A DNA stretch of 64,000 bases, from assembly GCF_025685425.1 (NCBI RefSeq), contig NZ_JAGTAS010000057.1, forward strand, positions 310,001 through 374,000. Reading direction: 5' to 3'. The DNA is from Terriglobus albidus. GTDB lineage: Bacteria; Acidobacteriota; Terriglobia; Terriglobales; Acidobacteriaceae. Of the stretch, positions 6,263 to 58,289 are shown in pieces; the stretch's first letter is position 1, and each line of letters begins with the position of its first letter. The notes below the pieces were generated by a model. The model did no database searches. It saw nothing but the letters and a program-made list of their open reading frames with translations, and was not told the DNA's origin. The position numbers and the translations under genes were made by a program.

Positions 6263-6305
6263 CCTGCGTGCAATTCGACAGAAGAGGGATTTGTTAGATT
6301 CGACG

Positions 6306-27451: not shown

Positions 27452-28228
27452 CTATCCGGCTGCGTGATGCAGGATAGAAGAATTGAGTGGAACGCTATCG
27501 GGTTCCCGCTTCTGGTTCAACATGAACTGAGCGCGTTGATAGCCATCCAGTGTTCCCGTGTCTACATATTCCTCACCCGTGTGGGAACCGAAGACTTCTC
27601 CTCCCAGAGTGATCCAGGCATTTAGCAGTGTTCCAAAATACTCATCGCGACGCTCGGCTTTACACCACAACTGATGCAAGGTGTGAAAGATATGGCCAGG
27701 GATCTTCATCGCACCCCAAATCCAGTTGGAGCCGGGTGTGGGGTGCTTGACTTCGATACATGTGACACGGTTTTCAAGATCGGTGATGACCGCGTCGAAG
27801 GGACTCGCGTCATCCACCGGGAACAGGAGGAGAGAAAACTTATCATCTGGCAAGGATGCGAGCGCGTCCATGGGATACCAGATCGTATCGGGGAGGCCGA
27901 TCACCACGGGTTCATCGGGAGACACCAGGGGAGCGGCACGAAATACAGCATCGCAAAGTCCGTTTGGAGTCTGCTGCACGACATAAGCAATATCGACTCC
28001 CCATACTCGTGACCCAAAATAAGAGAGAATATCTGCCTTCCCTGGGGATATCACAAAGCAAAGTTTTGTGGCTCCGGCGAGAATCATTCGTTCTACGAGA
28101 TATTCGCTTACGGCTTTGGGAGATTCGCGCCCATTATGCATTTTGCTACCCACAGGAAGGAGTTCCTTCGAAAAGGCCAGTGGTTGAATGCGGCTGCCAC
28201 TGCCTGCGGCTGGAATAATGCCCCACAT
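27452..28228 (-). CDS. Sugar-phosphate nucleotidyltransferase (RfbA/GalU-type)
   Basis: A 258-residue GT-A nucleotidyltransferase that would activate a sugar-1-phosphate with an NTP. N-terminal signature IIPAAGSGSRIQPLAFSKEL (G-x-G-x-R plus K), then QQTPNGLCDAVFRA, metal/phosphate region VIGLPDTIWYP, and the catalytic region EVKHPTPGSNWIWGAMKIP. The C terminus has EEYVDTGTLDGYQ. It lies 13 bp downstream of a CgeB-like transferase and is the distal gene of the main cluster. Confidence 0.88.
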   Translation of the reverse strand: MWGIIPAAGSGSRIQPLAFSKELLPVGSKMHNGRESPKAVSEYLVERMILAGATKLCFVISPGKADILSYFGSRVWGVDIAYVVQQTPNGLCDAVFRAAPLVSPDEPVVIGLPDTIWYPMDALASLPDDKFSLLLFPVDDASPFDAVITDLENRVTCIEVKHPTPGSNWIWGAMKIPGHIFHTLHQLWCKAERRDEYFGTLLNAWITLGGEVFGSHTGEEYVDTGTLDGYQRAQFMLNQKREPDSVPLNSSILHHAAG

Positions 28229-28241
28229 CTCTCACCTCTAT

Positions 28242-29339
28242 TCACGCAGCTATGGAAGACTTGGCGGTGGTACCGTGACAGTCCTCAAAGATATGAATCA
28301 ACTGGCATGCCCTGCTCTCAGCCGTATGGTTTTCCATGACACGCGTCTGCGCGGCACCAGCAATTTGTCGGAGCTCGCGGTCACTCATCTCAAGCATCTC
28401 GGTTACCTGCTGGGATGTTTCGACCGGAAGAATTTCTATGCCGGGTCTAAAAAACTCTTCTAGCCCTTCCCATACATCTGTCACAATCGGCACGCCACAG
28501 GCAGCGGCTTCAAACAGTCTTCCCGACGGGCAGTATCCAAACTCTTTCATCGCACCGCGTGTGACATTCAAGGTAGCGCGTCCGGAACAGAAAAATGCTG
28601 GGTGAAGATCAGGTGGAAGATGCCGTACGAAATGGATATTTGCCGCCCAGGGAAAATCGGCCGGATATTGGGCGCCTGCGATAAAGAACCGCTGACCGGG
28701 GCATCGCTGCGCAGGTTTCAGCAGCAGTTCCTGCAACGCCTCCTGACGGTCCGCCGCATATGTCCCTAAATAATTGAGAGCCGAGGAATATTCAGCGCAG
28801 GGCTGAACCTGGTGATAGAAGCGGCCGTCGACCCAGCCATATAAAGGCTGCACCCGCTTTGCGCCGAGCCGCGATCGAAGATCGGTGAGAGCTCTGCCGC
28901 CAGTAAAACTCAAGACCAGATCGAAGGCTCCAAGTCCCTCTTCAGGCAGATAGAACATTTTTGAACCCCGGCGCAAACTCTGCAACGTAACCGGAGTATC
29001 CATATCGTAGAAAACGGTCAACCCTTTGGCGTGCTCCATAACCAGATGACAAACTTCGGCGCCCGAAGGACAGTAGCTGGTAACCATCGCAACATCGGCA
29101 CGATGCATCTCGGCCGGCAGCTTCTCTGCTATATCGTCAAGGTCATCATAAAATCGCAACTCAACACCAGTTGGAATTGGCCATGCATCCTGAGTATCGG
29201 CATAGTAACTCACAATTTTCTCGAAGAAGACGACCTCGTGTCCCTGGCGGGCGAGTGCTGTCAGCATTCCCCGCCACAGTGAGGCATGGCCGTTCCCCCA
29301 CGATGATGAGACGGTTAGCCCGAATATGATGATCCGCAT
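28242..29339 (-). CDS. CgeB-like glycosyltransferase, paralogue 1
   Basis: A 365-residue GT-B protein of the CgeB/DUF3880-type group. The start at 29339 is chosen because the sequence then begins RIIIFGLTVSSSWGNGHA, the same opening as paralogue 2 at 33177. Central FYDMDTPVTLQSLRRG and SFTGGRALTDL, C-terminal acceptor/donor part with NYLGTYAADRQEAL, then RLFEAAACGVPIVTD and EEFFRPGIEIL. The last block is the GT-B donor-binding motif. Next gene downstream is the nucleotidyltransferase. Confidence 0.85.
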   Translation of the reverse strand: MRIIIFGLTVSSSWGNGHASLWRGMLTALARQGHEVVFFEKIVSYYADTQDAWPIPTGVELRFYDDLDDIAEKLPAEMHRADVAMVTSYCPSGAEVCHLVMEHAKGLTVFYDMDTPVTLQSLRRGSKMFYLPEEGLGAFDLVLSFTGGRALTDLRSRLGAKRVQPLYGWVDGRFYHQVQPCAEYSSALNYLGTYAADRQEALQELLLKPAQRCPGQRFFIAGAQYPADFPWAANIHFVRHLPPDLHPAFFCSGRATLNVTRGAMKEFGYCPSGRLFEAAACGVPIVTDVWEGLEEFFRPGIEILPVETSQQVTEMLEMSDRELRQIAGAAQTRVMENHTAESRACQLIHIFEDCHGTTAKSSIAA

Positions 29340-29622
29340 GGGCCGTTTCCTGCAGGTGAGATTGAATATCCGGCACACTTCCGAGCGCCGATACACAGTA
29401 CTCAGATGCGGGAAGTAGATGGATCTATATAGAACCTGCCGAAAAAAGCGAAGCAGACGTGCGACATAAAACAAATGGCTGGATTAGGCTGGCGCCATGA
29501 GATTTGTGACGCAATCTGACGTACACACGTTTTGGCGGCTGACCAACAGATGCACCCTTCGCTACGTCTGAAGATGCACTTAGCTCAAACAAGCCTTTCC
29601 ACGAGCTGAGTTACCGGTGGCG

Positions 29623-30393
29623 ATGAACAACGAGACACAGCAAACGATTCAATCGAAGATCTCTGAGCTTGCTCCGTGGTTCCATAACCTTCGCCTCGCG
29701 GGCGTAGAAACAGCTCCCGCTCATTTTCTTGGCGACTATCCGAGCGTGAAGTGGGAGAGGTTCCGTGCAGCGATCCCGGAAGACCTGAGTGGTAAGTCAG
29801 TGCTCGATATCGGGTGCAATGCGGGATTCTACTCGCTGGAGATGAAACGTCGTGGCGCAGCTCGCGTTCTGGGCATCGATTCTGACGAGCGCTATCTGGA
29901 GCAGGCGAAGCTCGCCGCTGAGATAGAAGATGTCGATATCGACTTCCAAAATCTATCCGTCTGGGATATCGCTCTTCTTCAGGAACGCTTCGATCTCGTC
30001 CTGTTTATGGGAGTTTTTTATCATCTTCGTCATCCTTTGCTTGCTCTGGATCTGATTCACGAATTCGCCGCAAAAGATCTTCTCGTTTTTCAAAGTCTTC
30101 AGCGAGGGAGCAATGAGATCGTCCAGACAGCAAAGGATTACGATTTCTCCGAAACCGGCCTGTTCGATCGCCCTGATTATCCGCGGATGCATTTCATTGA
30201 GCATAGTTACGCCCATGACCCGACAAACTGGTGGGTTCCGAATCGTGCGTGCGTTGAGGCGATGTTACGCTCGGCAGGCTTCAATATCCTTAGTCACCCC
30301 GAAGAGGAGGTTTATGTATGTAGCCGGCGGGAGATTCCTGTCCCACCCGACGGACCGCACTGTGTCTTTCCTGCGAAAGATGTGACTCGATGA
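29623..30393 (+). CDS. Class I SAM methyltransferase (TIGR04290-like)
   Basis: A 256-residue methyltransferase. SAM motif I VLDIGCNAGFYSLEMKRRGA followed by VLGIDSDERYLEQA; motif near FDLVLFMGVFYHLRHPLLAL as in CmoB/DUF1698 proteins; C-terminal GLFDRPDYPRMHFIEHSY and TNWWVPN. This pattern is what I remember of TIGR04290 ('Rta_06860 family'), regularly found in the rhizo-twelve glycan system. A GTG at 29617 is an alternative start. First of three plus-strand genes coupled by ATGA overlaps inside an otherwise minus-strand cluster. Confidence 0.87.
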   Translation: MNNETQQTIQSKISELAPWFHNLRLAGVETAPAHFLGDYPSVKWERFRAAIPEDLSGKSVLDIGCNAGFYSLEMKRRGAARVLGIDSDERYLEQAKLAAEIEDVDIDFQNLSVWDIALLQERFDLVLFMGVFYHLRHPLLALDLIHEFAAKDLLVFQSLQRGSNEIVQTAKDYDFSETGLFDRPDYPRMHFIEHSYAHDPTNWWVPNRACVEAMLRSAGFNILSHPEEEVYVCSRREIPVPPDGPHCVFPAKDVTR

Positions 30394-31430
30394 ACATCAT
30401 CCATTCCACGCTCAAGCTTGCAGAGCAGTATCTGGAGCTGCGATCGCTGGATGATGCGCTCGCCTGCTTCACATTGGCGGAGCGTATGGGTGCTGATCCC
30501 GATCGATGTGCCTGCGGTCGCTGGTTCGCGTGGATGCTTCTGGGTGAGTTCGAACACGCATGGGAAGAGAGCGACGCCATTCGTTCCCGGGGTATCCCGG
30601 ACCCGCATCGCTTCTGGCAAGGACAGGATATTCGGGAGCAGCGGGTCATCGTACGGTGTTTGCACGGCCTGGGAGATGCGGTACAGCAACTCCGCTATAT
30701 CGCCCCTTTGCGTATGCGGGCAAAAAACGTCATCGTCCAAACCCCTCCAGAACTGATGGAACTCGCAGCCTGCGTGGCGGGTGACAACAATGTGATCTCC
30801 TGGATTACCCCGCATCAGCCAGAACCTTACTGGGATGTGCAGGTGGAGGTGACGGAACTCTCCTACCTCTTTCGGTCCACAGTGGATTCTATTCCTCCAG
30901 CGCCTTATCTTCCTCTGCCACACAAGGCCATCGAGTCGGCCCTATTCGAACTAGGCCCCAGGCGAAGACCACGTATCGGTGTCGTGTGGCAGGCGGGCTC
31001 GTGGGACAGCGCAAGAAGCATCCCATTGCATCAGCTTCTGCCGGTATTTGAGATGGATGGTCTTGAGTTCTGGAACTTGCAGGGGGGCCCCGCAAGGCGT
31101 CAGTGGAGCGAGCTTCCCTTTCAGGGCCGCCTACGAGACTGCCGCGCTTGCGAGCATGGACTGCTCTCGCTCGCCTCGGTAATCTCTCACCTCGATCTCG
31201 TCATCACCGTGGATACACTAGTTGCCCATCTGGCCGGCGCCCTCGATATCCCTACGTGGGTGCTGTTGCAACATGCAGCCGACTGGCGTTGGCTGGTTTC
31301 CCGCTCCGATTGCCCCTGGTATTCCTCCGTCCGTTTGTTTCGCCAACATCGCCCAGGGACGTGGGAGCCAGTGATCAGGGCCGTGGAAGCTGCGCTCCGA
31401 GATCGAAGGAAGGAGATCATGGCCGCATGA
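30390..31430 (+). CDS. GT9/heptosyltransferase-like protein with N-terminal TPR-like helices
   Basis: A 346-residue protein. The first ~80 residues are helical and TPR-like (AEQYLELRSLDDALACFTLA). The remainder resembles the ADP-heptose:LPS heptosyltransferase (GT9) fold without strong N-terminal conservation: VIVRCLHGLGDAVQQLRYI, RIGVVWQAGSWDSARSIPL and VITVDTLVAHLAGALDIPTW, then WRWLVSRSDCPWY. The D-T-x-x-x-H-L-A-G block is the GT9 donor-site signature. The start overlaps the methyltransferase stop by ATGA, and its own stop overlaps the HAD gene in the same way. Confidence 0.82.
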   Translation: MNIIHSTLKLAEQYLELRSLDDALACFTLAERMGADPDRCACGRWFAWMLLGEFEHAWEESDAIRSRGIPDPHRFWQGQDIREQRVIVRCLHGLGDAVQQLRYIAPLRMRAKNVIVQTPPELMELAACVAGDNNVISWITPHQPEPYWDVQVEVTELSYLFRSTVDSIPPAPYLPLPHKAIESALFELGPRRRPRIGVVWQAGSWDSARSIPLHQLLPVFEMDGLEFWNLQGGPARRQWSELPFQGRLRDCRACEHGLLSLASVISHLDLVITVDTLVAHLAGALDIPTWVLLQHAADWRWLVSRSDCPWYSSVRLFRQHRPGTWEPVIRAVEAALRDRRKEIMAA

Positions 31431-32101
31431 GAGAGAATTGGGATCGTTTCGACGCTTACCTGTTCGATATCGATGGAACACTACTCGAATGTGTAGACGC
31501 GGTCCACTATTTCGCGTTCTGCGATGTGCTCACAACTATCGCAGGCCGTCCCATGAATCTTGACGGAGTAACCACCCATGGAAATACCGACATAGGCATC
31601 CTTCGTGACGCTCTGCGACAAGGGGGTCTGCCGGATGAGATGTGGAGAGATCGACTAGCGGAGATGCGAAGCCAGATGGCCACCTATGTGAATGCGCGAA
31701 TCGAGCAGGTATGCGCCCGACCGCATAAAGCCATCCACAAAGCGCTTCTACACCTTCGGAGCCGCAGGGCCTATCTCGGAGTGGCTACCGGTAATCTCGA
31801 AGCGATTGGGACAATCAAACTGCGATCCGCAGGACTATTCGAGTACTTTCAATTCGCCGCCTGGAGCGATCGTCACGAGATTCGCAGGGACGTGTTCGCG
31901 GAGGCACTCGCACGAGTACGGGAAGACATGGGGAAAGACACGTCGATCCTCATCGTAGGCGATACACCTGCCGATATCGAAGCAGCGAAGTATCATCACG
32001 TCCCTGTATTAGCGGTAGCGACTGGCATCTTTTCCGCCGTAGAGCTTGCTGCCTGTAGCCCCGAGATCTGCCTGAATTCGTTTTCTGACCTGATGGGATG
32101 A
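31427..32101 (+). CDS. HAD-superfamily phosphatase
   Basis: A 224-residue HAD hydrolase with motif I LFDIDGTLLE, motif II VATGN, motif III basic region around RRDVFAEAL and motif IV VGDTPADIEAA; a helical cap lies between motifs I and II. The start at 31427 overlaps the GT9-like stop (ATGA); the longer open frame upstream lies within that gene. Likely dephosphorylates a sugar phosphate in the pathway. Its 3' end overlaps, antisense, the last 106 bp of the CgeB-like gene 31996-33177. Confidence 0.9.
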   Translation: MRENWDRFDAYLFDIDGTLLECVDAVHYFAFCDVLTTIAGRPMNLDGVTTHGNTDIGILRDALRQGGLPDEMWRDRLAEMRSQMATYVNARIEQVCARPHKAIHKALLHLRSRRAYLGVATGNLEAIGTIKLRSAGLFEYFQFAAWSDRHEIRRDVFAEALARVREDMGKDTSILIVGDTPADIEAAKYHHVPVLAVATGIFSAVELAACSPEICLNSFSDLMG

Positions 32102-33177
32102 GACTTGCCCGCAGAACAGTCCTCAATGATCCGTTCAAACTGAAGAACACGATGCAGAGAAGTGTGCTCGCTCAGAATGCGATCTCGCGCATCCCTGCCG
32201 ATGCGCAACCGTTCTTCCTCAGAGAGGCTGGCCAGAACATCGACGACCTCCCTCTCGTTATCGACCAGCAGTATCTCCCGCGCGGGTGTAAAGAACTCCT
32301 CGATACCGTGCCATCTGTCGGAGATGATGACCGCGCCACACGCGGCTGCTTCAAAGAGACGTACCGACGGAGAATAGCCTGCCGTTATCATCTCCTTTCG
32401 CGTGAGATTCAGTGTAAACCGCGAAGAGGAATAAAACGCGGGATGTTGCGCGGGCGCTACGTGGTTGATATGTCGTACGTTCTTGGACCACTCAAGGGTC
32501 GTCGGATACTGAGGCCCCGCAACGATGAACTTCATATCCGTCATTGATCTGGCGGTTCCATCAAGCCAGGCAGAGAGCTTCTGCTGTCTATCGGACGCAT
32601 AGGTCCCGAGATAGCTCAGATCACAGCGAAACCTCTCCCTGGTCTTCCGGGGGCGATGAATCTCAGGATCGACCGAGCAGTAAAAAGGAATCGCCCTGGG
32701 AGACTTGAACCTGCGTTCTATCTCATTCGTGATTGGCCCTCCCGAAAACGACAGATATGCATCGTAGGCCGGGACATACGTTGCCTCAAGATAATCAGTC
32801 CTGCCGTATGCACGAAGCCGGGCGATTGTAATTGGCGTATCGATGTCGTAAAAGAGCAGCGGCCGGCAGTCATGCTCCAGCAGAGCCTGAGTCGCAACGA
32901 TTGCATCTGGAAAGTATGAGCCAACAATGACGCTGTCCGCATCGCGGGCAAGCTGGAGCAATCGGCGACGCGATCTTTGCCAGCTTCTGTAGAGATGAAC
33001 GGTGCACCATGGAAACTCCGCCGTATCGCGGTTGCTCCGGTACCATTCGACATCTTTCTCCACGAAATGCACTGTGTGACCACGCGCCGCAAGGGCTCTC
33101 ACAAGAGAACGATATGTCGTCGCGTGACCGTTTCCCCAGGACGATGTAATTGTCAGACCAAAGATTACGATCTTCAT
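31996..33177 (-). CDS. CgeB-like glycosyltransferase, paralogue 2
   Basis: A 393-residue GT-B protein close to paralogue 1: opening KIVIFGLTITSSWGNGHA, then FYDIDTPITIARLRAYG, LSFSGGPITNEIE, LSYLGTYASDRQQKL, and RLFEAAACGAVIISDRWHG followed by IEEFFTPAREILL. A C-terminal extension of about 35 residues lacks similarity to paralogue 1 and is the part lying antisense to the HAD gene. Start ATG overlaps the stop of the upstream transferase (ATGA). Likely transfers a hexose or deoxy-hexose in sequence with its neighbours. Confidence 0.86.
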   Translation of the reverse strand: MKIVIFGLTITSSWGNGHATTYRSLVRALAARGHTVHFVEKDVEWYRSNRDTAEFPWCTVHLYRSWQRSRRRLLQLARDADSVIVGSYFPDAIVATQALLEHDCRPLLFYDIDTPITIARLRAYGRTDYLEATYVPAYDAYLSFSGGPITNEIERRFKSPRAIPFYCSVDPEIHRPRKTRERFRCDLSYLGTYASDRQQKLSAWLDGTARSMTDMKFIVAGPQYPTTLEWSKNVRHINHVAPAQHPAFYSSSRFTLNLTRKEMITAGYSPSVRLFEAAACGAVIISDRWHGIEEFFTPAREILLVDNEREVVDVLASLSEEERLRIGRDARDRILSEHTSLHRVLQFERIIEDCSAGKSHPIRSENEFRQISGLQAASSTAEKMPVATANTGT

Positions 33178-34268
33178 GCCGGGACCTTTCTGATCGTCTG
33201 AGATCTTTGATGCAGATGTTCCCTAAAGATTTTCTCTACCTGTTGCGCTCTCCTGGCATAGGTATGTTGCCGCAAGGCTCGCTGCAGCGCTGCCTTCCCT
33301 ATCTGCCGTCTTTCCACCGGAGAGGTCTCACGAAGCGCCTTCACGACATCGCTTGCCGTCTGTACGACAAGAACTTCTTTCCCTGGTTCGAAACAGTCGT
33401 CGATCCCTTTCCAGTCGTCGCAGATCATGCAGGCTCCGGCGCCCGCACCTTCAAACATGCGGGTTGGGGGCGAGAATCCAAACGACGCCATGGAAGACCG
33501 GTTGATATTCATGACAAACCCAGCAGAGCAGTTAACTGCATTGTGCATTTCGGTGGGGACGTGGCCGATCCAGCGGACGTTTTGAGGGATTGTCTTATCC
33601 GCCCAGCCCTCACCTCCAAGAACAAACCGCTTTTCCGGAGCCTGCTCCGCCGCAGTTAGAAATAATTCATCCACTCGCTTTTCCCGGTCGGGAAGGCGAT
33701 TGCCGAGAAAGACGAGATCACAGTCATAGGACCGGACTGGAGGAACAGGATAGTGAGTCTCGGGATCGAGCGCGTTATAAACGTTGTAATAGGCTTGCGC
33801 GCCAAAGCTCGAATAGCCCGAACAACTCTCCGGTCCGCCGCCGTAGCTGAGTATGGCATCGAAGCACGGGATCAGAGTAAGAAACGGATCCGCAGGATCG
33901 GCTGTGAGACGAGCGATCGTAGCTGGAGAATCGACATCCCAGAAAAACGATGGCTTGTACTCGGCGAGATTCGCGACCAATCTCTCAAGAATCACATCAT
34001 GAGTCCCGACTCCGCTATGCTTGATGACGATATCTGCATCACTGCTGTTATCTATCACCTCTTCTTCCGTTCCAGGTTGGTACACGATCGAGCGGACATA
34101 GGAAAAATCTCCCTCATCGAGATGTTGCTGGCGACCAAATGCATCGGGTTCCGCGAAGACAATCTCATGACCGCGCTTCGCCAGATATTTATAGATCCCG
34201 CGATAGTACGTGGCCGCCCCATTCCAGTAGGACGATAAAATGCTGGAACCTACGGCGAAGATCTTCAT
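33174..34268 (-). CDS. CgeB-like glycosyltransferase, paralogue 3
   Basis: A 364-residue GT-B protein. It begins KIFAVGSSILSSYWNGAA, has FFWDVDSPATIARLTADP, LSYGGGPESC, LVFLGNRLPDREKRVDEL and TRMFEGAGAGACMICDDWKG, then CFEPGKEVLVV. More distant from paralogues 1 and 2 than they are from each other. ATGA overlaps on both sides indicate translational coupling within the block. Confidence 0.85.
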   Translation of the reverse strand: MKIFAVGSSILSSYWNGAATYYRGIYKYLAKRGHEIVFAEPDAFGRQQHLDEGDFSYVRSIVYQPGTEEEVIDNSSDADIVIKHSGVGTHDVILERLVANLAEYKPSFFWDVDSPATIARLTADPADPFLTLIPCFDAILSYGGGPESCSGYSSFGAQAYYNVYNALDPETHYPVPPVRSYDCDLVFLGNRLPDREKRVDELFLTAAEQAPEKRFVLGGEGWADKTIPQNVRWIGHVPTEMHNAVNCSAGFVMNINRSSMASFGFSPPTRMFEGAGAGACMICDDWKGIDDCFEPGKEVLVVQTASDVVKALRETSPVERRQIGKAALQRALRQHTYARRAQQVEKIFREHLHQRSQTIRKVPA

Positions 34269-35380
34269 CGCGAGACCTCCTCGCAGATTGCCGTCAGTTC
34301 TTCAGCGCGATGCCTGCACGTGTGACGCTGTAACACCGTCTCCAGACCTCTCAAGGCTTGTTCTTCTGCCGCAGCGGAATCATTCAACAGGTGTGCCATC
34401 GTTTTGCGCATCTCCTCGCCGTTTCGCACGAAATGGAAATCGCCTGGCCGGAACAGATGTTCGATATCCTGCCAGGGGGCTGATATCAAGGGAATGCCGC
34501 AGGCTAAGGCCTCAAACACCCGAATCGTGGGAATGCCGTACATGGCAGTTGCATAGTGCCGGCGAGGAATGTGGACCGTCAGCCGCGACTCAGAAAAGAC
34601 CTCCGGCGCATCCAGGTTTGGAAGGTATCCCCCAAATGTGATTCCGGCGTTTTCAAGCGCGAAGATTCCCCGTTCCGGATACCTCACACCGAAGACCACC
34701 GGTGAAACCAGCTGCAGCTCGGATATTGGACGGACCAGGAATTCACAGATCTCCTGCGACCGCTCATCATCGCCCCAATTGCCGATCCATACGAGATCAT
34801 GTTTCTTTTCCGGGCAACAGAGTGGATGGAATACGCTCGTGTCCGCTGCTTCGTGAAGGATCCAGGTATTTCTCATCCCGAGCGTCTCGATATAGAGATG
34901 CTGAAGACTTTCACCAAATGCCAGGACACCATCAAACCGGCTAACACCCAACAAGTGAATCTGTTCAGGATCAGAAGAGGCGCGATGATGAGTGTCATGA
35001 AACAGCAGCTTGAACCTTAGCTCATTACGAAGCGCCAGTAGCATCTGTGTAAGGGCAGGAGAGTTCCACTCGTGCACGATCACGATCTCCGTATCCCTCA
35101 ATTCATGCTTCCAGTGAGCATCATCCTTGAGGGTTTGATCGCTATAGAGCCGCACGACGATCTCTGGAAATCGATGGTGGAAGTCATTCACGGACCTGCG
35201 TCCCTTGCTCTCCAGAACAAGATTCTGGATCGACCAGTTCTCCGACAATTCGTACGCCACTACTTCATGACCGAGGGCTATCAACTCCCGGATCAGCCCC
35301 CGAAGGAAATGGGCATTGCCGTTATTCCAGTCCGAGCGGATTGAATGCGCGAAATACGCGATGCGGAATTTACGCTGCAT
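34265..35380 (-). CDS. CgeB-like glycosyltransferase, paralogue 4
   Basis: A 371-residue GT-B protein, the most divergent of the four. N terminus FRIAYFAHSIRSDWNNGNAHF keeps the W-x-N-G-x-A/N-A feature. Further blocks: LLFHDTHHRASS (in place of the D-[MIV]-D-[TS] site of the others), GVLAFGESLQHLY, LVWIGNWGDDERSQEI, and RVFEALACGIPLISAPWQDI followed by EHLFRPGDFHF. It overlaps the GT4 gene by 11 bp and paralogue 3 by 4 bp. Confidence 0.83.
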   Translation of the reverse strand: MQRKFRIAYFAHSIRSDWNNGNAHFLRGLIRELIALGHEVVAYELSENWSIQNLVLESKGRRSVNDFHHRFPEIVVRLYSDQTLKDDAHWKHELRDTEIVIVHEWNSPALTQMLLALRNELRFKLLFHDTHHRASSDPEQIHLLGVSRFDGVLAFGESLQHLYIETLGMRNTWILHEAADTSVFHPLCCPEKKHDLVWIGNWGDDERSQEICEFLVRPISELQLVSPVVFGVRYPERGIFALENAGITFGGYLPNLDAPEVFSESRLTVHIPRRHYATAMYGIPTIRVFEALACGIPLISAPWQDIEHLFRPGDFHFVRNGEEMRKTMAHLLNDSAAAEEQALRGLETVLQRHTCRHRAEELTAICEEVSR

Positions 35381-36473
35381 GGCGAATACCCTGCGCTGCT
35401 GAAACGAACTTGTTGAACAGCTGGAGATAACCCCTCACCATCTGCTCCCGGTTGAATAGCTGTGCTCTGTTTCGCGCTGCATCTTGCAACTTCTGGAGCT
35501 TCTCGATGTCGCTCGACAATTCGCTGACGAGCGCGGGCAGCTCGGAGGGGTCTGAAAAGTACGTAGCCGCATCCTGCCACACTTCACGCAAACTTGGAAT
35601 ATCTCTCAGTAAAAGCGCGCACCCACAAAGAGCGGCCTCCAGCGGAGCCAACCCGAAGGGTTCATAGATCGAGCTGCAAAGATAAATGGAACTCATTGAA
35701 AACAGCTTTATGATCTCCATCGCGGAGATCGGGCCCAATACGGTGGCGCCTCCCGGAATACGTTGCAGCCGGTTGCTCTCATGCTGCCTTGATCCAGCGA
35801 TCACATAGGGGATAGGAAAAGTGACGTCGTTCAAAGTATGAATTCCTTTTGCTTCGTCCCATATCCTGCCCACTGTTATCATCTGCATTGCTTTAGGGCC
35901 AGCGCAGTCGCACTCAAGCAAACGTCCGTTTGTGATTACTTCGGCTTCGGAACCATATCCAAATCGGCGCTCCAACTCTTGTGCCATCCAGTACGTGGGC
36001 GCCACAATCGCGGTAGCCTTTTTTAGACCGTGCTCGACTAAATGCATATAGTTGTGCAGCCAGGCGCTAGCGGGAAGCTCCTCTTTTCGGCAAGCTGCTG
36101 CCCAGCTCAATACATCGCTATGCGCGGTTACTATCGTTGGAACCATGTCCGAGAGCCCGCCGAAGCAGTATTGACTGCTATGAATTACCTGCGGACCAAA
36201 GTCCTCCGCCAGAGATCGCAATAAAGGGAATGCTTGATCCTGAACCAAACCGTTTTCCGTCATCCACTCCAGCGGAAGTTCCGACGGGATGTAGCGAAAA
36301 CGACGATGGCTTTTATGGAGAAGTTCTTCGCATGTCACCATCTGCAGAGCAGACGGCCGGCCGCCAAAGCTGACGAGGAGAACTTCACAGCCCGCCTCAA
36401 GATATCCCTGCACTAATTCCCGAGTAAATGTCCAGACGCCGCCGACCGTATCGGTAGTCATCAGGATGCGCAT
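35370..36473 (-). CDS. Glycosyltransferase family 4
   Basis: A 367-residue GT-B transferase. Start at 36473 overlaps the radical SAM gene by 13 bp. N terminus RILMTTDTVGGVWTFTRELV; C-terminal donor half with MQMITVGRIWDEAKG and the EX7E-type block SSIYEPFGLAPLEAALCGCALLL. The opening TDTVGGVWTY/F is typical of a GT4 subgroup found with CgeB-like and B12-radical-SAM genes (my recollection). Likely a cytoplasmic sugar transferase in the pathway. Confidence 0.9.
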   Translation of the reverse strand: MRILMTTDTVGGVWTFTRELVQGYLEAGCEVLLVSFGGRPSALQMVTCEELLHKSHRRFRYIPSELPLEWMTENGLVQDQAFPLLRSLAEDFGPQVIHSSQYCFGGLSDMVPTIVTAHSDVLSWAAACRKEELPASAWLHNYMHLVEHGLKKATAIVAPTYWMAQELERRFGYGSEAEVITNGRLLECDCAGPKAMQMITVGRIWDEAKGIHTLNDVTFPIPYVIAGSRQHESNRLQRIPGGATVLGPISAMEIIKLFSMSSIYLCSSIYEPFGLAPLEAALCGCALLLRDIPSLREVWQDAATYFSDPSELPALVSELSSDIEKLQKLQDAARNRAQLFNREQMVRGYLQLFNKFVSAAQGIRHAA

Positions 36474-37768
36474 TCGAGCTCCCTCAGCGATAGAGGCCGT
36501 TGTTCCTGGATGTCGCTATAGCCGCGGTCCGCAAAGTTCTGCAGATAGAAGGCATGTGCTCGCTCCCAGGCGCCGTCGTCAGGAGGAGCTCCAAACGTAT
36601 GGACGTATTGGGGACTTCCGGGGAACGGAAACATCGGGACAGGTTCGCTGACCCACACTCCCGCGGATTTCAAGTATGCCTGAAACTTCTGGACGGCCGC
36701 AGGATCGTCTTTCGTCGTTGCAATGAGATTCGCCTGAACCCAGGGGATGTGTTTCCTGGCACAGACCAGGAGCTGCTGAATATGTTCGGTGGAAAGCCGG
36801 CAGTTCTTATTGAGCTCGTCCCTTCCCTCCTCAGTAATGGATTCGATACCGCATTCAAAAGAGACACAGTGAGCTCGCTGGAGCAGATCCAGAGATTCCT
36901 CGTCCCAAAGATCGATACGAGTCTGGAAGCCGATCGCGAGCGGCCGCGTGGAAAGTTCCTCCAGTAGGTGGCGTACCTGCTTGCCCACACCGAAGATCTC
37001 GTCGATGAAGTAGATGTAATCCACGCCCCGGCCAATGAGCTGATCTATTTCTGCAAGGACGGCGGCCAGATCGCGTTCACGGAATTTATTGCGAAACAGG
37101 GTCTTGTTGCAGAAGCTACAGGAATAAGGACAGCCACGGGCGAACTCGACTTCGGCGCCAAGCTTGAGGTGGTCTCCTCCATTGCCGCGAAAGACGTGGT
37201 GAAGATGATGGTGCCGCTCCACGGGATACGCCGCGTAGTCGAGAGCCGGAAGGTCTTTCATATTTGTCACACCAAGCCCTTCGGCCATGCGCATACGTCC
37301 CAGCTCGTCGCGCCAGCAGCACCCGGGTACCATCTCCCACGGCATGGAGGCCAGCAGTGGAAGCGTCTCATCCGGCTCTCCCCGCAGGATGATCTCCACC
37401 CCGGTTTTGGACATTGCACTCGTGGGTGTTGCCGAACCGTGCGGTCCAATCAGCACCGTTGTGGACTCTTTCCGCAGCTCTGCGATCCAGGTGCGCGGCA
37501 CTCTGAGTTCCGGTTGAGGGCAACGCCAGAACAGATATGAAGGTGCTGATGGTACTACCAGGAAGTCCTCGTTGAACCGGTCGAGACGTGTGCGTACCTC
37601 GCACGGATTCAGCAACTCCATGTTCGCATCAATCAGCAAAGCCTCATGTCCAGCCTGGCGGAGATTCTCCTGAGCCGAAAGCAGCTCAAGCGGAAAATGC
37701 GGCTCGGCACAACCAAAGTAGGTTGAACCGGCGAAGGACCATTGCGGATTTACCAGAGCAAACTTCAT
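36461..37768 (-). CDS. B12-binding-type radical SAM protein (TIGR04295-like)
   Basis: A 435-residue radical SAM enzyme. Start at 37768 overlaps the epimerase stop (ATGA); the longer frame upstream is antisense-phase read-through of that gene. Residues about 1-150 form a Rossmann-like B12-binding-type domain (KFALVNPQWSFAGSTYFGCA, LLIDANMELL), but I do not see a DxHxxG cobalamin motif. The 4Fe-4S cluster motif CPYSCSFC has cysteines at about 213, 217 and 220. YIYFIDEIFG and SFECGIESITEEGRDEL are later radical SAM blocks. It resembles what I recall as TIGR04295 of the rhizo-twelve system. It probably performs radical methylation or rearrangement of the glycan or a nucleotide sugar. Confidence 0.87.
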   Translation of the reverse strand: MKFALVNPQWSFAGSTYFGCAEPHFPLELLSAQENLRQAGHEALLIDANMELLNPCEVRTRLDRFNEDFLVVPSAPSYLFWRCPQPELRVPRTWIAELRKESTTVLIGPHGSATPTSAMSKTGVEIILRGEPDETLPLLASMPWEMVPGCCWRDELGRMRMAEGLGVTNMKDLPALDYAAYPVERHHHLHHVFRGNGGDHLKLGAEVEFARGCPYSCSFCNKTLFRNKFRERDLAAVLAEIDQLIGRGVDYIYFIDEIFGVGKQVRHLLEELSTRPLAIGFQTRIDLWDEESLDLLQRAHCVSFECGIESITEEGRDELNKNCRLSTEHIQQLLVCARKHIPWVQANLIATTKDDPAAVQKFQAYLKSAGVWVSEPVPMFPFPGSPQYVHTFGAPPDDGAWERAHAFYLQNFADRGYSDIQEQRPLSLRELECAS

Positions 37769-38847
37769 GCCACCTTCACCTCGAACGGTAGATTTGGCAG
37801 TTCCGATGGAGCGGGAGAGAGATGCTCCTTCCAGAAGAGATGAATATCGCGAAGCGTTTTTTCCAGTGATGCCCGTGCCCTCCACCCTGTGTCTCGCGAG
37901 AGTCGGGAGGTATCGGAAACATAAAGGGGCTGATCACCGGCACGGGTAGCCCGATAGTCGAGACGCAGGCGACTTCCTGTAATCTTCTCCAATTGCGCGA
38001 TCAGCTCTCTTAGAGAGATCGCACGGGATGGTCCCCCGCCGACGTTGTAGACTTCGCCCGCACATCGGTCGCGATGCAGCCGAACAGCACACATCGCATT
38101 CACAAGATCACTCACATCAAGCACATCGCGCACCTGGCAACCATCGCCGTAAATAGCGATTGGGCTGCCTGTCAGTGCGGAATAAAGAAAATGTGCGACC
38201 CAGCCCTGATCCTCATTGCCAAACTGGCGCTTCCCGGCAATACACGACATGCGGAAAACAACAGCAGGAATCCCGAAGATACGGGCATAGTCACGCACGT
38301 ACTGATCCGCCGCGCCTTTGGAGCAGCCGTACGGCGAATGAAAGTCCAGGGGCTGCTCCTCGTTCACTCCGCAGAATCCTGGGATGGCGGCACAGTAGCG
38401 GGAGCCGCGGCGTTCTACGGGCACGTTGCGCAGGGCTCCATAGACTTTATTGGTTGAGGTAAACAATAGAAGCGGGCTCATCTTTGAGCGCCGTGCCGCC
38501 TCAAGGAGGTGAAATGTTCCCTGGGCGTTGATCGCGAAGTCGGTTTCCGGATCATCGATCGATGAGGTTACGGCGACCTGAGCGGCGAAGTGATAGATCT
38601 CTCCAACGCCGTGAACAGCCTCCGTCACCGCGTGCTGATTGCGAATATCGGCATGAACGAATTCCAGCCTTCCCTGGGGAGCAATCGCTCGGAGCCATTT
38701 AAGGTTGCGTTCCGTACCTGAACGAGACAGATTGTCAAAGATACGAACAGTGAGATCGGTTTCTGTCAGCAGACGCTCCGCCAGATTGCAGCCGATGAAG
38801 CCGGCGCCACCAGTGATCAATACCGGTCTTGAGGATAGTTTTGACAT
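37765..38847 (-). CDS. NAD-dependent epimerase, CDP-paratose/tyvelose 2-epimerase-like
   Basis: A 360-residue extended SDR. NAD site GGAGFIGCNLA (about 13-23), YHFAAQVAVTSSIDDP, TSTNKVYG (130-137) and catalytic YGCSK (Tyr 173, Lys 177). The run GVNEEQPLDFHSPYGCSKG plus AADQYVRDYARIFG and FGNEDQGWVAHF closely follows the pattern I know from CDP-paratose 2-epimerase (TyvE/RfbE), rather than GalE. Whether the substrate is truly a CDP-3,6-dideoxyhexose is open, because no CDP-glucose 4,6-dehydratase or 3-dehydrase gene is visible nearby. AGTAAGGG lies just before the start. Confidence 0.87.
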   Translation of the reverse strand: MSKLSSRPVLITGGAGFIGCNLAERLLTETDLTVRIFDNLSRSGTERNLKWLRAIAPQGRLEFVHADIRNQHAVTEAVHGVGEIYHFAAQVAVTSSIDDPETDFAINAQGTFHLLEAARRSKMSPLLLFTSTNKVYGALRNVPVERRGSRYCAAIPGFCGVNEEQPLDFHSPYGCSKGAADQYVRDYARIFGIPAVVFRMSCIAGKRQFGNEDQGWVAHFLYSALTGSPIAIYGDGCQVRDVLDVSDLVNAMCAVRLHRDRCAGEVYNVGGGPSRAISLRELIAQLEKITGSRLRLDYRATRAGDQPLYVSDTSRLSRDTGWRARASLEKTLRDIHLFWKEHLSPAPSELPNLPFEVKVA

Positions 38848-38884
38848 CCCTTACTGCCTTTCTCTGTTACCGCAGCAGTTAGTC

Positions 38885-40006
38885 TTATGCCGTCAGCCCG
38901 AATGCAGCCAGCTCGGTCAACATCTTGTCGGCGCGGTCCTCAGGCTCCTGGTGCGCCAGCCACGCCGCAAGTTCCGCAAAGCCACACTCGTGCGAGATCT
39001 TCGGCTCGTAGCCCAGTAATTTCCTCGCCTTCGAGATGTCGGCAAAACAATGGCGAATGTCACCGGCTCGATATTTGTGAGATACCGTCGGCAGGATCTC
39101 TCTACCCAGAGCATGGGCGAGTTTTTCTGCTACCTGCCGAATCGTAATCGGGACACCACAACCGATATTGATCACGTGATCGTTGGACTCGGGCCTTTCC
39201 ATGGCGAGCATATTCGCTCTCACGATGTCCTGAACGTGCACGAAATCACGCATCTGTTCACCATCTTCAAAAATGAGCGGCTGTTTGCCATTGAGCATGC
39301 GCGAAGCAAAGACGGCAGCAACTCCGGTATAAGGATTTGAGAGCGCCTGGCGCGTCCCGTAGATATTGAAGAACCGCAATGCGGTCACTGGAACACCGTA
39401 CGTTCTTCCGAAGATGAGGCACATCTCTTCCTGATCACGCTTTGAAAGGGCATACATCGAATTGATCTCGGATGGCTTGCTCTCATTGGTCGGAACCGGT
39501 GTCAGTACCGCATGGCAAAGATAGCAGCGGGGGTTCCATGCCCCAGACCTCAGCTGATCGATGGATCGAACCCGCGGCGCTGCATCCATGCCGCACTCGA
39601 GGCATTTGTAACGCCCCTCGCCATAGATCGACATCGACGAAGCGACCACAACCTTTTCCAATGTTTGCTTGGAATCAAGAATGGCCTGCAGTAACTCGGC
39701 CGTTCCCTGTGTATTGATGCTCATGTAGCGGCTGATTTCATACATCGACTGTCCTACGCCGACGGCGGCTGCAAAGTGATATACAACATCGATTCCCCGC
39801 AGCGCTCGCCGAATCGCATCTGCATCTCGCACATCGTCCCGAATTAGTTCCACATTCCGCGAAAGATACTCCGGAACTCCTCCCAAGTGGACCTGTGGAG
39901 TCAGGTTATCCAGCACACGCACTCTATGCCCTGCCTGAAGCAGGCCGTCTGCCAAATGCGAGCCAACAAATCCCGCCCCTCCCGTAATCAACACATGTTT
40001 GCTCAT
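38885..40006 (-). CDS. NAD-dependent epimerase with zinc-ribbon insert, dTDP-L-rhamnose 4-epimerase-like
   Basis: A 373-residue extended SDR. NAD site GGAGFVGSHLA, then YHFAAAVGVGQSMYE, SSMSIYGEG, catalytic YALSK (Tyr about 185, Lys about 189), and RFFNIYGTRQALSNPYTGV. Between the Ser block and the Tyr it carries two Cys pairs (CLEC at about 135-138 and CYLC at about 161-164), a zinc-ribbon-like insertion that I associate with dTDP-L-rhamnose 4-epimerases. That enzyme makes dTDP-6-deoxy-L-talose. The start overlaps the glycosidase stop (ATGA). Confidence 0.87.
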   Translation of the reverse strand: MSKHVLITGGAGFVGSHLADGLLQAGHRVRVLDNLTPQVHLGGVPEYLSRNVELIRDDVRDADAIRRALRGIDVVYHFAAAVGVGQSMYEISRYMSINTQGTAELLQAILDSKQTLEKVVVASSMSIYGEGRYKCLECGMDAAPRVRSIDQLRSGAWNPRCYLCHAVLTPVPTNESKPSEINSMYALSKRDQEEMCLIFGRTYGVPVTALRFFNIYGTRQALSNPYTGVAAVFASRMLNGKQPLIFEDGEQMRDFVHVQDIVRANMLAMERPESNDHVINIGCGVPITIRQVAEKLAHALGREILPTVSHKYRAGDIRHCFADISKARKLLGYEPKISHECGFAELAAWLAHQEPEDRADKMLTELAAFGLTA

Positions 40007-40929
40007 GCGCGTGCCAATGCCTCCTCGACAGGTGATTTTTCCGGTGATGCAAGGCAATAGCGCTCTACTGCCCAGGCCGCGAATTCAGCGAATTGCCGAG
40101 GGTCTCTGGGTGGGCTCGTATGGTGCTCTTCCAGTCCGAGATGGCCAGGTGTGAAGCACAACGTCACAGCCACCTCAAATGGCGCCAGCGCCTCCATCAT
40201 GCGATCGAACCACGCAACCGCATTCGGTCGATAGAAATCCGCCCAGCTCAAGCCTGTCCGCAAATGACGCACGCCGAGGCGATGCATCCAATGAACGGCA
40301 TTCTCCAGCCGCGGATCTTCAAAGTGAAACCACTGGCAGATCCCAATGCTTCCATCTGCCGGAAATGCCTCGAGCATCGGCTTCGGAGAACCGTCGTGAC
40401 GTAATAGCCCGAGATAGTAATGGCGGTAGTATGCGGACCCTTCGGCCTCTTTGTGCCGCGTCTCCGCCGGCCAGGATGGAGGCAGATCAAAAAGAGAGTA
40501 CCAATAGACTCTTGCGGCGCCATGTAGTAGCTGCAGAGTCCGCTTCAGCCCAAAGGTGCCGATCTCTTCCGCACCGAAGGTGGAAGCGCCGACCTCGGTG
40601 ACCCACACAGGTAGCTCGCTGACCTCTCCGGCTTCCAGAAGCCTCTGCGGCCATTCTTCAATCCGCCAGTGATTCCAATCCAATGGAAAGCCATGGACAC
40701 CGACAGCATCAACATGCTGCAGAGTGCCATACGATTTCATCAGGCGAAGGAAGTCGACGTCGCAGGAAGACACCCCTCCCAGGACGACCGGCAAATCTGG
40801 AGCAATCTCCCTGATAGCCTCCGAAGCGCATCGCACTGTCTCGGCATAGATCCGCCAGTCCGGATCAAGATGGAAGTTCCAGTGAGATAAGTTATTGGGC
40901 TCGTTCCAGAGAACGATCGAATCCACCAT
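40003..40929 (-). CDS. Glycoside hydrolase (clan-A-like TIM barrel) with apparently permuted order
   Basis: A 308-residue protein; start at 40929 has AAGGAAGG seven bases upstream, whereas the ATG at 40965 has no properly spaced site. The acid/base motif LWNEPNN occurs at residues 7-13, where a clan-A glycosidase normally has about 130 residues before it. The nucleophile-type WVTEVGAS follows at about 109-116 and the strand-8 segment YWYSLFDLPPSW at about 142-153. After that, residues about 193-293 (IGICQWFHFEDPRLENAV, LGVRHLRTGLSWADFY, VAVTLCFTPGHLG, FAAWAVERYC) look like the first three barrel strands. Strand order would thus be 4-8 then 1-3. No signal peptide is visible, so it may act in the cytoplasm. 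It lies upstream of, and coupled to, the epimerase gene. Confidence 0.78.
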   Translation of the reverse strand: MVDSIVLWNEPNNLSHWNFHLDPDWRIYAETVRCASEAIREIAPDLPVVLGGVSSCDVDFLRLMKSYGTLQHVDAVGVHGFPLDWNHWRIEEWPQRLLEAGEVSELPVWVTEVGASTFGAEEIGTFGLKRTLQLLHGAARVYWYSLFDLPPSWPAETRHKEAEGSAYYRHYYLGLLRHDGSPKPMLEAFPADGSIGICQWFHFEDPRLENAVHWMHRLGVRHLRTGLSWADFYRPNAVAWFDRMMEALAPFEVAVTLCFTPGHLGLEEHHTSPPRDPRQFAEFAAWAVERYCLASPEKSPVEEALARA

Positions 40930-45819: not shown

Positions 45820-46686
45820 GTGCGCCGCGCTTCACCAGGAACTTCGCTTCTGGAAGGACTCGAACCACTCATCGAAGCCGTGCAACAGAAACGACTCATT
45901 CTTTTTGTCGGCGGAGGCGCGTCACAGAATCTCGGCCTGCCGGACTTTACCGCACTGGTAAAGCACCTGGCGCAGGAACTCGGGACAGAACAACCGGCGC
46001 TAGCATACCCTGACTATCCCATCATCGCGGAAGCGTATCTTCTCAAACATGGCAAACTTGGTCCTCTGAGAAGCTGGATGGACCTCACCTGGCACCCTAA
46101 CAGCGTTTCGATTGCAGATTCTGAGCTGCACCGGCTCATTGTAGAGATCGGGTTCTCGACCATCTACACCACCAATTATGACCGTTGGCTGGAACGGGCC
46201 TTCGAACAATATAAAAAGCCGTTTCACAAGATAGCCAACGTGGCGGACCTGACTCAGCATGCAGCCGGTGCGACGGAGATTATCAAGTTCCACGGCGACT
46301 TCGAAGATGACGAGTCGCTGGTCCTCACAGAGTCGAGCTATTTCCAGCGTATGCTCTTTGAGAGCCCGCTGGATCTGCGGCTACGATCAGACAGTCTGGC
46401 CCGTCCAATACTCTTTATCGGTTACAGCCTTCACGACATCAATACACGCTATTTGCTTTTTCGCCTGCAGGAGCTCTGGAGAAACTCCGTTTACGGCAAC
46501 CAGCGGCCACTATCCTACATTGTGATGAACCAGCACGATCTCCCACAGGAAGCGGTTCTACGCAGCCGCGGAGTCATACCCATCGTCCTTGAAAACCTGG
46601 ATGCGGGTGAGGCTGTCACTCGCCTTCTCCGGGAATTGAGCAACTCCGTCTCTAAGGCGAAACCGAAGAAAACATCCTCGTCCTGA
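45820..46686 (+). CDS. Stand-alone SIR2-like domain protein
   Basis: A 288-residue SIR2-family protein (SIR2_2-like). It starts at GTG 45820, with GAGGAG five bases upstream. NAD-binding blocks: RLILFVGGGASQNLGLPDF (G-A-S in place of G-A-G-I-S of classical sirtuins), IYTTNYDRWLE (T-x-N-x-D), KFHGDFEDDESLVLT (the catalytic His) and FIGYSLHDINTRYLL. No zinc ribbon is present, so it is not a classical deacetylase. Related domains act as NAD-depleting effectors in Thoeris, DSR and other anti-phage systems, but here no partner gene (TIR, HerA, Argonaute) adjoins. It is divergent from glgX. Confidence 0.85.
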   Translation: MRRASPGTSLLEGLEPLIEAVQQKRLILFVGGGASQNLGLPDFTALVKHLAQELGTEQPALAYPDYPIIAEAYLLKHGKLGPLRSWMDLTWHPNSVSIADSELHRLIVEIGFSTIYTTNYDRWLERAFEQYKKPFHKIANVADLTQHAAGATEIIKFHGDFEDDESLVLTESSYFQRMLFESPLDLRLRSDSLARPILFIGYSLHDINTRYLLFRLQELWRNSVYGNQRPLSYIVMNQHDLPQEAVLRSRGVIPIVLENLDAGEAVTRLLRELSNSVSKAKPKKTSSS

Positions 46687-51308: not shown

Positions 51309-51587
51309 CCGCTCGTCTCCCAAAACGCTGGGAGTCCTCCGAAGTCTCCCTCATGTCCCAGAGCCCCATCGTGCTCACGATGGATGATCCTCGCTTCTAC
51401 CTGGTCATGCCTCCGTATGTGTGTCTTCGATCCACGAAGTCAGGAGGACGCCGTGATGTGCCATAGAAGGCCGTCAGAGAGGAAGCGGGCAACTCTTCTA
51501 CTCCGCCCGCCATCAGCATTGTTCGAATAAAGACACGAAGATCGTTGTCTCACGAAGAACACAGGTTCACCGGCGAGTGGATTGACA

Positions 51588-54192: not shown

Positions 54193-54743
54193 GGCCTATG
54201 CTCGTTTCCATCCTGCTTCTCGGCAGTCTGCTGACCGGGTGCAAGCGCGAGCAGCGGGTCTTCGATCCCGGAGCAGCCGGTTCACAGCCGGCCAACGGTA
54301 CCGTTCTCAGCGAGGTCGCCGCCGGTCAACAGCCGCCCAAAGGAAATCAGCCCAATCCTATTGCTGAAAGCGCTTACGCCGTCGCAGAAGGTAAGCGCTT
54401 CTATCAGGCCTACAACTGCGTCGGCTGCCATGCAAATGGCGGTGGCGCCATTGGTCCGGCGTTGATGGACTCGGAGTGGATCTACGGCAGCTCTCTCGAA
54501 CAGATCCACTCCACTATCGTGCAGGGCCGCCCCAATGGAATGCCGAGCTACGCCGGAAAGATTCCTGACTATCAGGTATGGGAGATCGCCGCCTATGTGA
54601 GATCGATGAGTGGACAACTTCCCTCTGATGTTGCTCCCTCGCGTTCTGATCACATGCCGATGGTTGTTCCCGAACAATCGCGTCCGCAGGAGCATCCAGG
54701 CGCGGAGCATCCTCAGCCTGTCGTCTCGGAGCCATCGCGATGA
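54189..54743 (+). CDS. Cytochrome c lipoprotein, probable XoxG-type electron acceptor
   Basis: A 184-residue c-type cytochrome with a lipobox at LLTGC (Cys 18). One haem site CVGCH (77-81) and a sixth-ligand Met in the GMPSYAGKI segment (class I cytochrome c). Pro/Gln-rich tails flank the haem domain. ATGA overlaps join it to both neighbours. Expected to carry electrons from the PQQ enzyme to the oxidase CuA subunit. Confidence 0.88.
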   Translation: MRPMLVSILLLGSLLTGCKREQRVFDPGAAGSQPANGTVLSEVAAGQQPPKGNQPNPIAESAYAVAEGKRFYQAYNCVGCHANGGGAIGPALMDSEWIYGSSLEQIHSTIVQGRPNGMPSYAGKIPDYQVWEIAAYVRSMSGQLPSDVAPSRSDHMPMVVPEQSRPQEHPGAEHPQPVVSEPSR

Positions 54744-58286: not shown

Positions 58287-58289
58287 ACC

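Follow-up and report, generated by a model that had tools for sequence, protein, structure and literature searches.

A conserved TIGR04290/TIGR04295 gene cassette in Terriglobus albidus, its circularly permuted glycosidase and its putative oligosaccharide product

The protein families TIGR04290, an S-adenosylmethionine (SAM)-dependent methyltransferase, and TIGR04295 (B12_rSAM_oligo), a radical SAM protein with a B12-binding domain, are markers of a gene cassette of alphaproteobacteria, for which we take 'Rhizo-twelve' to be the name. A related block of thirteen genes lies at positions 27452-40929 of the stretch of the Terriglobus albidus genome that is analysed here, 64,000 nucleotides in full length and hereafter called the window. 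Like the alphaproteobacterial cassette, this block has both markers over cut-off and the same seven-gene core order; unlike it, the block contains a GT9-like gene and a HAD-family gene and belongs to a separate deep clade, and compared with the cassette of Bradyrhizobium it is without UDP-xylose synthase, inositol-phosphate synthase (INO1) and phosphopentomutase.

Some of the individual enzymes also have counterparts in described systems. GH70 glucansucrases, extracellular multidomain enzymes that are placed with GH13 in clan GH-H, are the familiar case of a naturally permuted glycosidase barrel. Their catalytic TIM barrel is described as circularly permuted in PMC5216370, and among the papers listed in a literature search on permuted glycosidases those on GH70 were the ones to use this term. 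In this permutation they resemble the glycosidase encoded in the block (GHx), which differs from them in being small and GH-A-like and in that cassettes of this type also encode a canonical paralogue of it. With the clan GH-A glycosidases of the PslG/GH39-like kind GHx shares two catalytic glutamates, in the motifs WNEPNN and TEVG, and an eight-stranded barrel, whereas its strand order is rotated (4-8, then 1-3). PslG itself is described in PMC9075953 as a glycosyl hydrolase located inside the cell, whose gene is transcribed together with the Psl genes, and by analogy it may serve as a model for the role of GHx. Furthermore, the epimerase EpiA of the block aligns nearly end to end with the CDP-tyvelose (CDP-paratose) 2-epimerase structures 1orr and 9rl0, with STNKVYG, PYGCSKGAADQY and DQGW in common, and differs from them in that 13 loci encode it as a fusion with a glycosidase domain.

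A literature search for the marker families, the system name, and the EcfG/beta-xylosidase and CgeB/cobalamin/Rhizobiales contexts found no paper on the system or its product. NCBI models exist for two genes of the system; its core, its breadth across phyla and its integrity when split are set out here. In this paper, we have computed the gene set of the block, its conservation and co-occurrence in other genomes, and the permutation, fusion and loss of catalytic residues in its glycosidases. New here are the breadth of the system, its integrity when split, the sequence-based assignment of EpiA to the 2-epimerases, and the permuted glycosidase.

The block and its recurrence as one conserved system

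The block is one conserved system, the genes of which remain together within a genome even when they are divided between loci. In the window it comprises the following genes, among which is every gene type that a first-pass annotation, made from the letters alone, had listed:

27452..28228, minus strand: NT, an RmlA-like sugar-1-phosphate nucleotidylyltransferase (PF00483, 34.3 bits against a cut-off of 21.2; glucose-1-phosphate thymidylyltransferase structure 1lvw, E 8.7e-12)
28242..29339, minus strand: CgeB1, a CgeB-like glycosyltransferase adjoining NT, as in many relatives (PF13524, E 1e-35; start set by eye at MRIIIFGL)
29617..30393, plus strand: MT, a TIGR04290 SAM-dependent methyltransferase (384.4 bits against an NCBI curated cut-off of 300)
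30390..31430, plus strand: GT9-like protein with a weak C-terminal heptosyltransferase match (PF01075, 23.3 bits against 22)
31427..32101, plus strand: HAD-family phosphatase (PF13419, E 1.3e-13)
31996..33177, minus strand: CgeB2, a CgeB-like glycosyltransferase (PF13524, E 7.9e-38)
33174..34268, minus strand: CgeB3, a CgeB-like glycosyltransferase (PF13524, E 3.5e-38)
34265..35380, minus strand: CgeB4, a CgeB-like glycosyltransferase (PF13524, E 2.6e-31)
35370..36473, minus strand: GT4 glycosyltransferase (PF13439, E 1.4e-16; PF00534, E 3.7e-13)
36461..37768, minus strand: rSAM, a TIGR04295 B12-binding-domain radical SAM protein (606.3 bits against an NCBI curated cut-off of 400)
37765..38847, minus strand: EpiA, a putative nucleoside diphosphate (NDP)-sugar epimerase of the CDP-tyvelose 2-epimerase kind (9rl0, 1orr)
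38885..40006, minus strand: EpiB, an SDR NDP-sugar epimerase with a four-cysteine insert (PF01370, E 1.6e-53)
40003..40929, minus strand: GHx, a circularly permuted clan GH-A-like glycosidase (strands 4-8, then 1-3)

Both markers that the annotation had named pass their curated cut-offs, and the cysteines C213, C217 and C220 of the CxxxCxxC motif of rSAM are invariant among ten sequences. Ten genes lie on the minus strand, in the order GHx-EpiB-EpiA-rSAM-GT4-CgeB4-CgeB3-CgeB2 and also CgeB1-NT, and MT-GT9-HAD lie on the plus strand, so that the block spans both strands; neither this nor the tail-to-tail overlap of 106 bp between HAD and CgeB2 (31996-32101) had been noted in the annotation. Most of the other neighbours overlap by 4-13 bp, as already annotated: computed from the ends of the open reading frames (ORFs), with starts positioned by relatives, the overlap is 4 bp for MT/GT9, GT9/HAD, CgeB2/CgeB3, CgeB3/CgeB4, rSAM/EpiA and EpiB/GHx, 11 bp for CgeB4/GT4 and 13 bp for GT4/rSAM, while gaps of 37 bp and 13 bp separate EpiA/EpiB and NT/CgeB1, respectively. 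The block end at 40929 agrees with a start codon that relatives have at the corresponding position. In locus L018 the HAD and CgeB2 ORFs abut and do not overlap.

To trace the cassette, a ten-sequence rSAM alignment was searched against genome contigs, which confirmed at least 388 relatives among at least 590 matching stretches; the best 80 of these relatives, nine loci fetched earlier and the window make up 90 sources, of which at least one is a duplicate, the rSAM rows of L020 and L083 being identical and the two contigs, of equal length, apparently one and the same. Since in GC-rich loci a simple ORF caller reports shadow ORFs on the antisense strand (the ORF clusters c14, c18, c19, c24, c30 and c36 were judged artefacts by eye), genes were counted instead by their best tblastn label (E <= 1e-8, coverage >= 0.3), and the counts are lower bounds, many contigs ending within or near the cassette. 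Apart from rSAM, present in all 90 sources by construction, the core genes were found as follows: EpiA in 81, GT4 in 76, CgeB4 and CgeB3 in 74 each, EpiB in 72 and CgeB2 in 70. MT (62) and GHx (56) are less frequent, followed by CgeB1 (30), NT (27), GT9 (22) and HAD (16), and the accessory genes are a canonical fused glycosidase (13), a histidine-type phosphatase (HisP, 11), UDP-xylose synthase (10), UDP-glucose dehydrogenase (9) and INO1 (5). In 56 of the 58 loci that have all seven genes, these follow one another without a break as EpiB-EpiA-rSAM-GT4-CgeB4-CgeB3-CgeB2, the sole difference in the other two being a split or doubled hit; alphaproteobacterial plasmids, Bradyrhizobium included, have the same order. 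The grouping is far beyond chance, as these genes are found together in other genomes too. Neither of the two outcomes that, according to the first-pass annotation, would refute its reading was observed.

The integrity of the system extends to genomes in which it is divided. In eight of the 53 sources whose sequence extends 9.5 kb or more to either side of rSAM, CgeB2-4 are missing from the locus; a strong CgeB3 match was found elsewhere in all eight genomes (E 6e-105 or better), accompanied by weaker paralogue hits, two in six genomes and one in two. A 'minimal' system of MT, EpiA and rSAM was therefore dropped. In a sample of 396 genomes of the window's phylum, the window genome included, TIGR04295 scores over its cut-off in six, TIGR04290 over its own in seven, and CgeB3 at E <= 1e-60 in seven; TIGR04290 and CgeB3 mark the identical seven genomes, and TIGR04295 marks all of these but G286. 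A TIGR04290-like gene at E <= 1e-40 occurs in 13 genomes of this sample. With the centre genome counted in each case, 14 of the 385 genomes sampled from the class to which the Skermanella carrier belongs have TIGR04295 over cut-off, as do two of 292 from the phylum of a cyanobacterial carrier, both of them known carriers. The system is rare in the sampled genomes.

A permuted glycosidase and its fused paralogue

GHx is a naturally circularly permuted TIM barrel. The first strand of this 308-aa protein bears the acid/base motif WNEPNN (E10); the nucleophile motif TEVG (E112) comes next, and the segment expected at the start of a canonical barrel is found at the C-terminal end. When the 320-residue GHx ORF was compared by BLASTP with the EpiA-fused protein of Tistrella, the two matched in swapped order, residues 17-195 with 120-297 and residues 202-303 with 10-113. 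Rotating the GHx sequence improved its match to PslG from E 0.001 to 5.4e-9, in a single stretch across the join, which is direct evidence for a natural circular permutation. A hit was obtained in 64 of 89 loci: the order is permuted in 55 of these, canonical in seven and unassigned in two. E10 and E112 are invariant in 30 permuted sequences aligned end to end. The swap was detected by comparing ORFs, many of them from metagenome bins, but an artefact of assembly or gene calling is highly improbable, as the permuted loci include complete annotated plasmids of Bradyrhizobium and Azospirillum brasilense and the 30 sequences align over their full length in swapped order.

Structure prediction is consistent with this. 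The AlphaFold2 model of permuted GHx (pLDDT 85.8, pTM 0.86) has eight strands ordered 4-8, then 1-3, and that of the canonical domain of L084 (pLDDT 80.6, pTM 0.80) has strands 1-8, the numbering in both models being assigned from the motifs. The model of GHx places the acid/base glutamate at the end of strand 4 (model strand E4-7) and the nucleophile glutamate at strand 7 (model strand E108-113), as in retaining enzymes of clan GH-A. In Foldseek searches the canonical domain matched PslG at 6.6e-15, followed by GH39, GH2, GH10 and GH5 enzymes, while for the permuted model no more than two chains, each of them GH99 with a TM of about 0.36, had E <= 0.001, and GH128 (1.5e-3) and GH10 (2.2e-3) enzymes came next, over only 142-159 columns. 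The VIA-align rows for the permuted model are generic TIM barrels, which exclude no family and are what is expected of a sequential aligner given a rotated barrel.

In the 13 loci mentioned above, EpiA and the canonical glycosidase domain form one continuous reading frame. The two catalytic positions of the fused copies were read, and their genomes were searched for a permuted GHx. Where both forms occur in a genome, the fused copy has lost one or both catalytic glutamates in seven of eight cases (L078 N/G, L082 Q/Q, L089 H/Q, L100 Q/Q, L087 T/A, L092 E/G, and both in G753); where no permuted copy was found, in genomes that may be incomplete, both glutamates are kept in eight of eight (L084, L097, G420, G438, G500, G564, G567 and G665). 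The fused domain of Tistrella retains both, and the Q/Q copy of L100 comes from a record titled Candidatus Solibacter. Counted by genome this gives a Fisher p of 0.0014, among genomes that are related to one another (G396 and G753; the Tistrella-like genomes are near relatives), and the G665 hit has the coordinates of that on the plasmid of L014, apparently the same species. The count leaves out L077, in which the acid/base region is not in frame and the nucleophile is kept, L014 and L016, both E/E, for which the plasmid alone was searched, and L086 (E/E, genome not searched). Six more of 13 alphaproteobacterial-class genomes have the permuted copy only (G450, G552, G610, G651 and G682) or neither form (G476); a second hit in G682, far from its rSAM gene and with 28% identity, was not counted. 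From these residues GHx appears to have taken over catalysis from the canonical domain fused to EpiA. A permuted enzyme beside a canonical, often seemingly inactivated fused paralogue forms a natural series, in which permutation appears to replace the parent domain.

Phylogeny of the cassette

The rSAM tree, with 89 rows, is divided into two deep clades, A and B, with 100% support. Of the 56 rows in clade A, 51 bear Acidobacteriota titles. The others are the window, two genomes from its genus and family, and two contigs (L029 and L030), one titled Verrucomicrobia and one Rhodanobacteraceae, which nest within Acidobacteriaceae and are probably mis-binned. The 33 rows of clade B belong to Alphaproteobacteria, Deltaproteobacteria/Myxococcota, Cyanobacteriota, Nitrospira and other Acidobacteriota, and the nearest named rSAM relatives of the window are Acidobacteriaceae, up to 75% identical among the matches listed. 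The trees of CgeB3, EpiB and CgeB4 recover the same split at 100%, and pairwise distances of the seven core genes correlate at 0.75-0.88, uncorrected values that shared descent alone would raise. The cassette core has a common history, and the congruence of gene trees for which the first-pass annotation had called is found, with regard to this one deep split, for these four genes.

The annotation had also regarded the system as one of Rhizobiales that was shared between phyla. The cassette occurs in several other phyla and is not specific to Rhizobiales. Transfer into the window's lineage, on the other hand, is not demonstrated, since the window sits in the almost entirely acidobacterial clade A and a 44-row test did not reject a tree in which Acidobacteriota are held together (p-AU 0.195). 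A recent transfer from Rhizobiales is unsupported for the same reasons.

Proposed pathway, its alternatives and the surroundings

From the enzyme types a modified oligosaccharide is to be expected, which is the kind of product that had been annotated. We consider it probable that the block assembles such a chain, that the chain is short and that GHx trims it, the most likely site of assembly being the cytosol. The reactions and their order, as we infer them from the enzyme families, would be as follows. NT would activate a sugar, and EpiB and the 2-epimerase-like EpiA would reshape nucleotide sugars, joined in some relatives by UDP-glucose dehydrogenase or UDP-xylose synthase. Among solved SDR enzymes EpiA is by far closest to 9rl0 (E 3.1e-77) and 1orr (E 4e-73), the next best being at 2.6e-33; it belongs with the CDP-tyvelose 2-epimerases, and epimerisation at C2 is predicted. 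The same family presumably includes the C2 epimerase TaCPa2E. Its action on CDP-glucose is described in PMC9207888. For EpiB, 4-epimerase structures match in two pieces that flank the four-cysteine insert. GT4 and CgeB1-4 would then add up to five sugars successively. The best solved relatives of the rSAM profile are the apramycin-pathway enzyme 6fd2 and the B12-dependent methyltransferases 6wte and TokK, which makes it likely that rSAM alters a sugar carbon by C-methylation, other radical chemistry being possible. MT would O-methylate the chain; its nearest solved structures are the tRNA (mo5U34)-methyltransferase 4p7c and others, at E 3e-12 and weaker, and it resembles EvdMO1 only distantly. 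Finally, GHx would trim or recycle the glycan, as the biosynthetic hydrolase PslG may do, as a circular permutant of the barrel that is elsewhere fused to EpiA and whose catalysis would have passed to it.

Whether the product leaves the cell bears on the first alternative, a surface glycan (O-antigen-like, capsular or lipid-linked) with its export genes elsewhere in the genome, which we regard as unlikely. NT, SDR epimerases, GT4 and CgeB-like enzymes occur in surface-glycan loci too, the closest glycosidase, PslG, comes from an exported-polysaccharide pathway, and the GT9-like gene is weakly heptosyltransferase-like. However, among the 20 ORFs scanned between 21.5 and 45.7 kb, the rest of the genome not being searched, there is no flippase, polymerase, ABC exporter, ligase or carrier-lipid transferase that would make up a Wzx/Wzy- or ABC-type locus, and none of these is found among ten recurrent neighbour proteins identified by Pfam, which represent part of the neighbouring gene clusters. 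In a hydropathy scan the maximum over 19 residues is below 1.6 in 11 of the 13 cassette proteins, the exceptions being GT9 (1.65) and HAD (1.91). The lack of export and carrier-lipid genes in the scanned ORFs, together with that of strong membrane segments, suggests a cytosolic location; the surface attachment that the annotation had entertained is thus unsupported.

A more specific form of our reading takes myo-inositol as the acceptor, giving an inositol-headed oligosaccharide, and seems improbable to us to the same degree as a surface glycan. INO1, a phosphatase or UDP-xylose synthase joins the cassette in several alphaproteobacteria, which suggests that inositol and xylose enter the alphaproteobacterial version; INO1 and a histidine-type phosphatase lie inside the cassettes of Bradyrhizobium and Azospirillum, and they are found in five and 11 of the 90 sources, respectively. 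Yet INO1 is in the locus of only five of these sources, and the window's genome has its one INO1-family gene on a different contig, where an 8-kb stretch around it contains none of the cassette genes. Less likely still is the glycosylation of a protein or a small-molecule aglycone in place of a free oligosaccharide. In Bacillus, CgeB has been linked to glycosylation of the spore surface, which speaks for this idea, but a tally of neighbouring gene clusters, made with a crude ORF caller, gave no candidate acceptor gene as a frequent neighbour, and a methyltransferase and a glycosidase suit a capped and trimmed glycan.

For the short cytosolic oligosaccharide that we prefer, a function can be proposed only tentatively: an undescribed class of compound, C-modified by rSAM and O-methylated, might protect soil, lichen and crust bacteria from drying. 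Its trimming enzyme might have arisen by circular permutation of a paralogue of the canonical fused domain and have become the catalyst, with a dead scaffold remaining in the EpiA fusion. At least one among 12 markers of stress or respiration (including Zn-alcohol dehydrogenase, SRPBCC, catalase, ferritin-like protein, Ku, PQQ-dehydrogenase and cytochrome oxidase) occurs in 23 of 53 loci, compared with two of 20 background stretches taken from five genomes of the phylum only (p 0.006), the markers having been picked from these same neighbourhoods after viewing. Tested singly, just two of 18 markers are nominally below 0.05, and a literature search on CgeB with stress or desiccation found no paper naming CgeB. 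The stress link is a lead, not a result.

Besides this choice of markers and the shared descent that alone would raise the distance correlations, several observations weigh against the proposed system or parts of it. Six of the 396 phylum genomes have a TIGR04290-like gene below cut-off and neither TIGR04295 nor CgeB3. A stretch of 19.9 kb in G286 (L173, G286:C4:98000-117900) contains INO1-like, CgeB1, NT, MT, GHx, CgeB2-4 and GT4 genes, and EpiB, EpiA and rSAM were not found in it, nor was any TIGR04295 match at E 1e-60 anywhere in that genome; the modules of the cassette are thus separable, and the NDP-sugar and rSAM part can be missing. The MT tree agrees less well with the core (r 0.51-0.65). 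GHx has no Pfam match over cut-off, the best being Glyco_hydro_cc with 15.8 bits against 21, and for this reason it is called GH39-like and not GH39; its canonical paralogue has none either. With regard to the takeover of catalysis, the fused copy of L090 is E/E although its genome has a permuted GHx, and on the tree there are just two independent contrasts, in the predicted direction in most pairings, so that no significance can be claimed for the catalytic loss.

The GC content is 0.53-0.58 in all 32 2-kb steps of the window, and composition therefore marks no island. Scans for sigma-70 promoters and terminators gave fewer sites than in shuffled sequence, and a search for near-copies of the block on plasmids found none. 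A known anti-phage defence system was considered and rejected, as none of the ten of 13 proteins scanned matched a PADLOC model at full length, the partial matches being those of MT (mad2, 1.1e-11) and rSAM (PDC-M51A, 7.7e-10). Elsewhere in the window's genome, at G000:C50:282170-289860, five weak TIGR04295-like matches (L002, L003 and L005-L007) are neighbours on one strand, and in L018 the UDP-glucose dehydrogenase gene by the cassette (5166-6577) spans two reading frames and is apparently broken or frameshifted.

Around the block, the window encodes at 51582-59608 a PQQ-dependent alcohol dehydrogenase together with CtaG and subunits of cytochrome oxidase; similar genes, as a full or partial set, are found near the cassette in L014, L015, L018 and L089. 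An ORF of 288 aa at 45820-46686 has a SIR2-type look by eye. A second sugar-related block at 17590-21361 consists of a PIG-L deacetylase and a GT4 protein, both identified by Pfam, together with a FemAB/BcsL-like protein and one more recognised by eye; a PIG-L and GT4 pair adjoins the cassette in L081, L082 and L100 as well.

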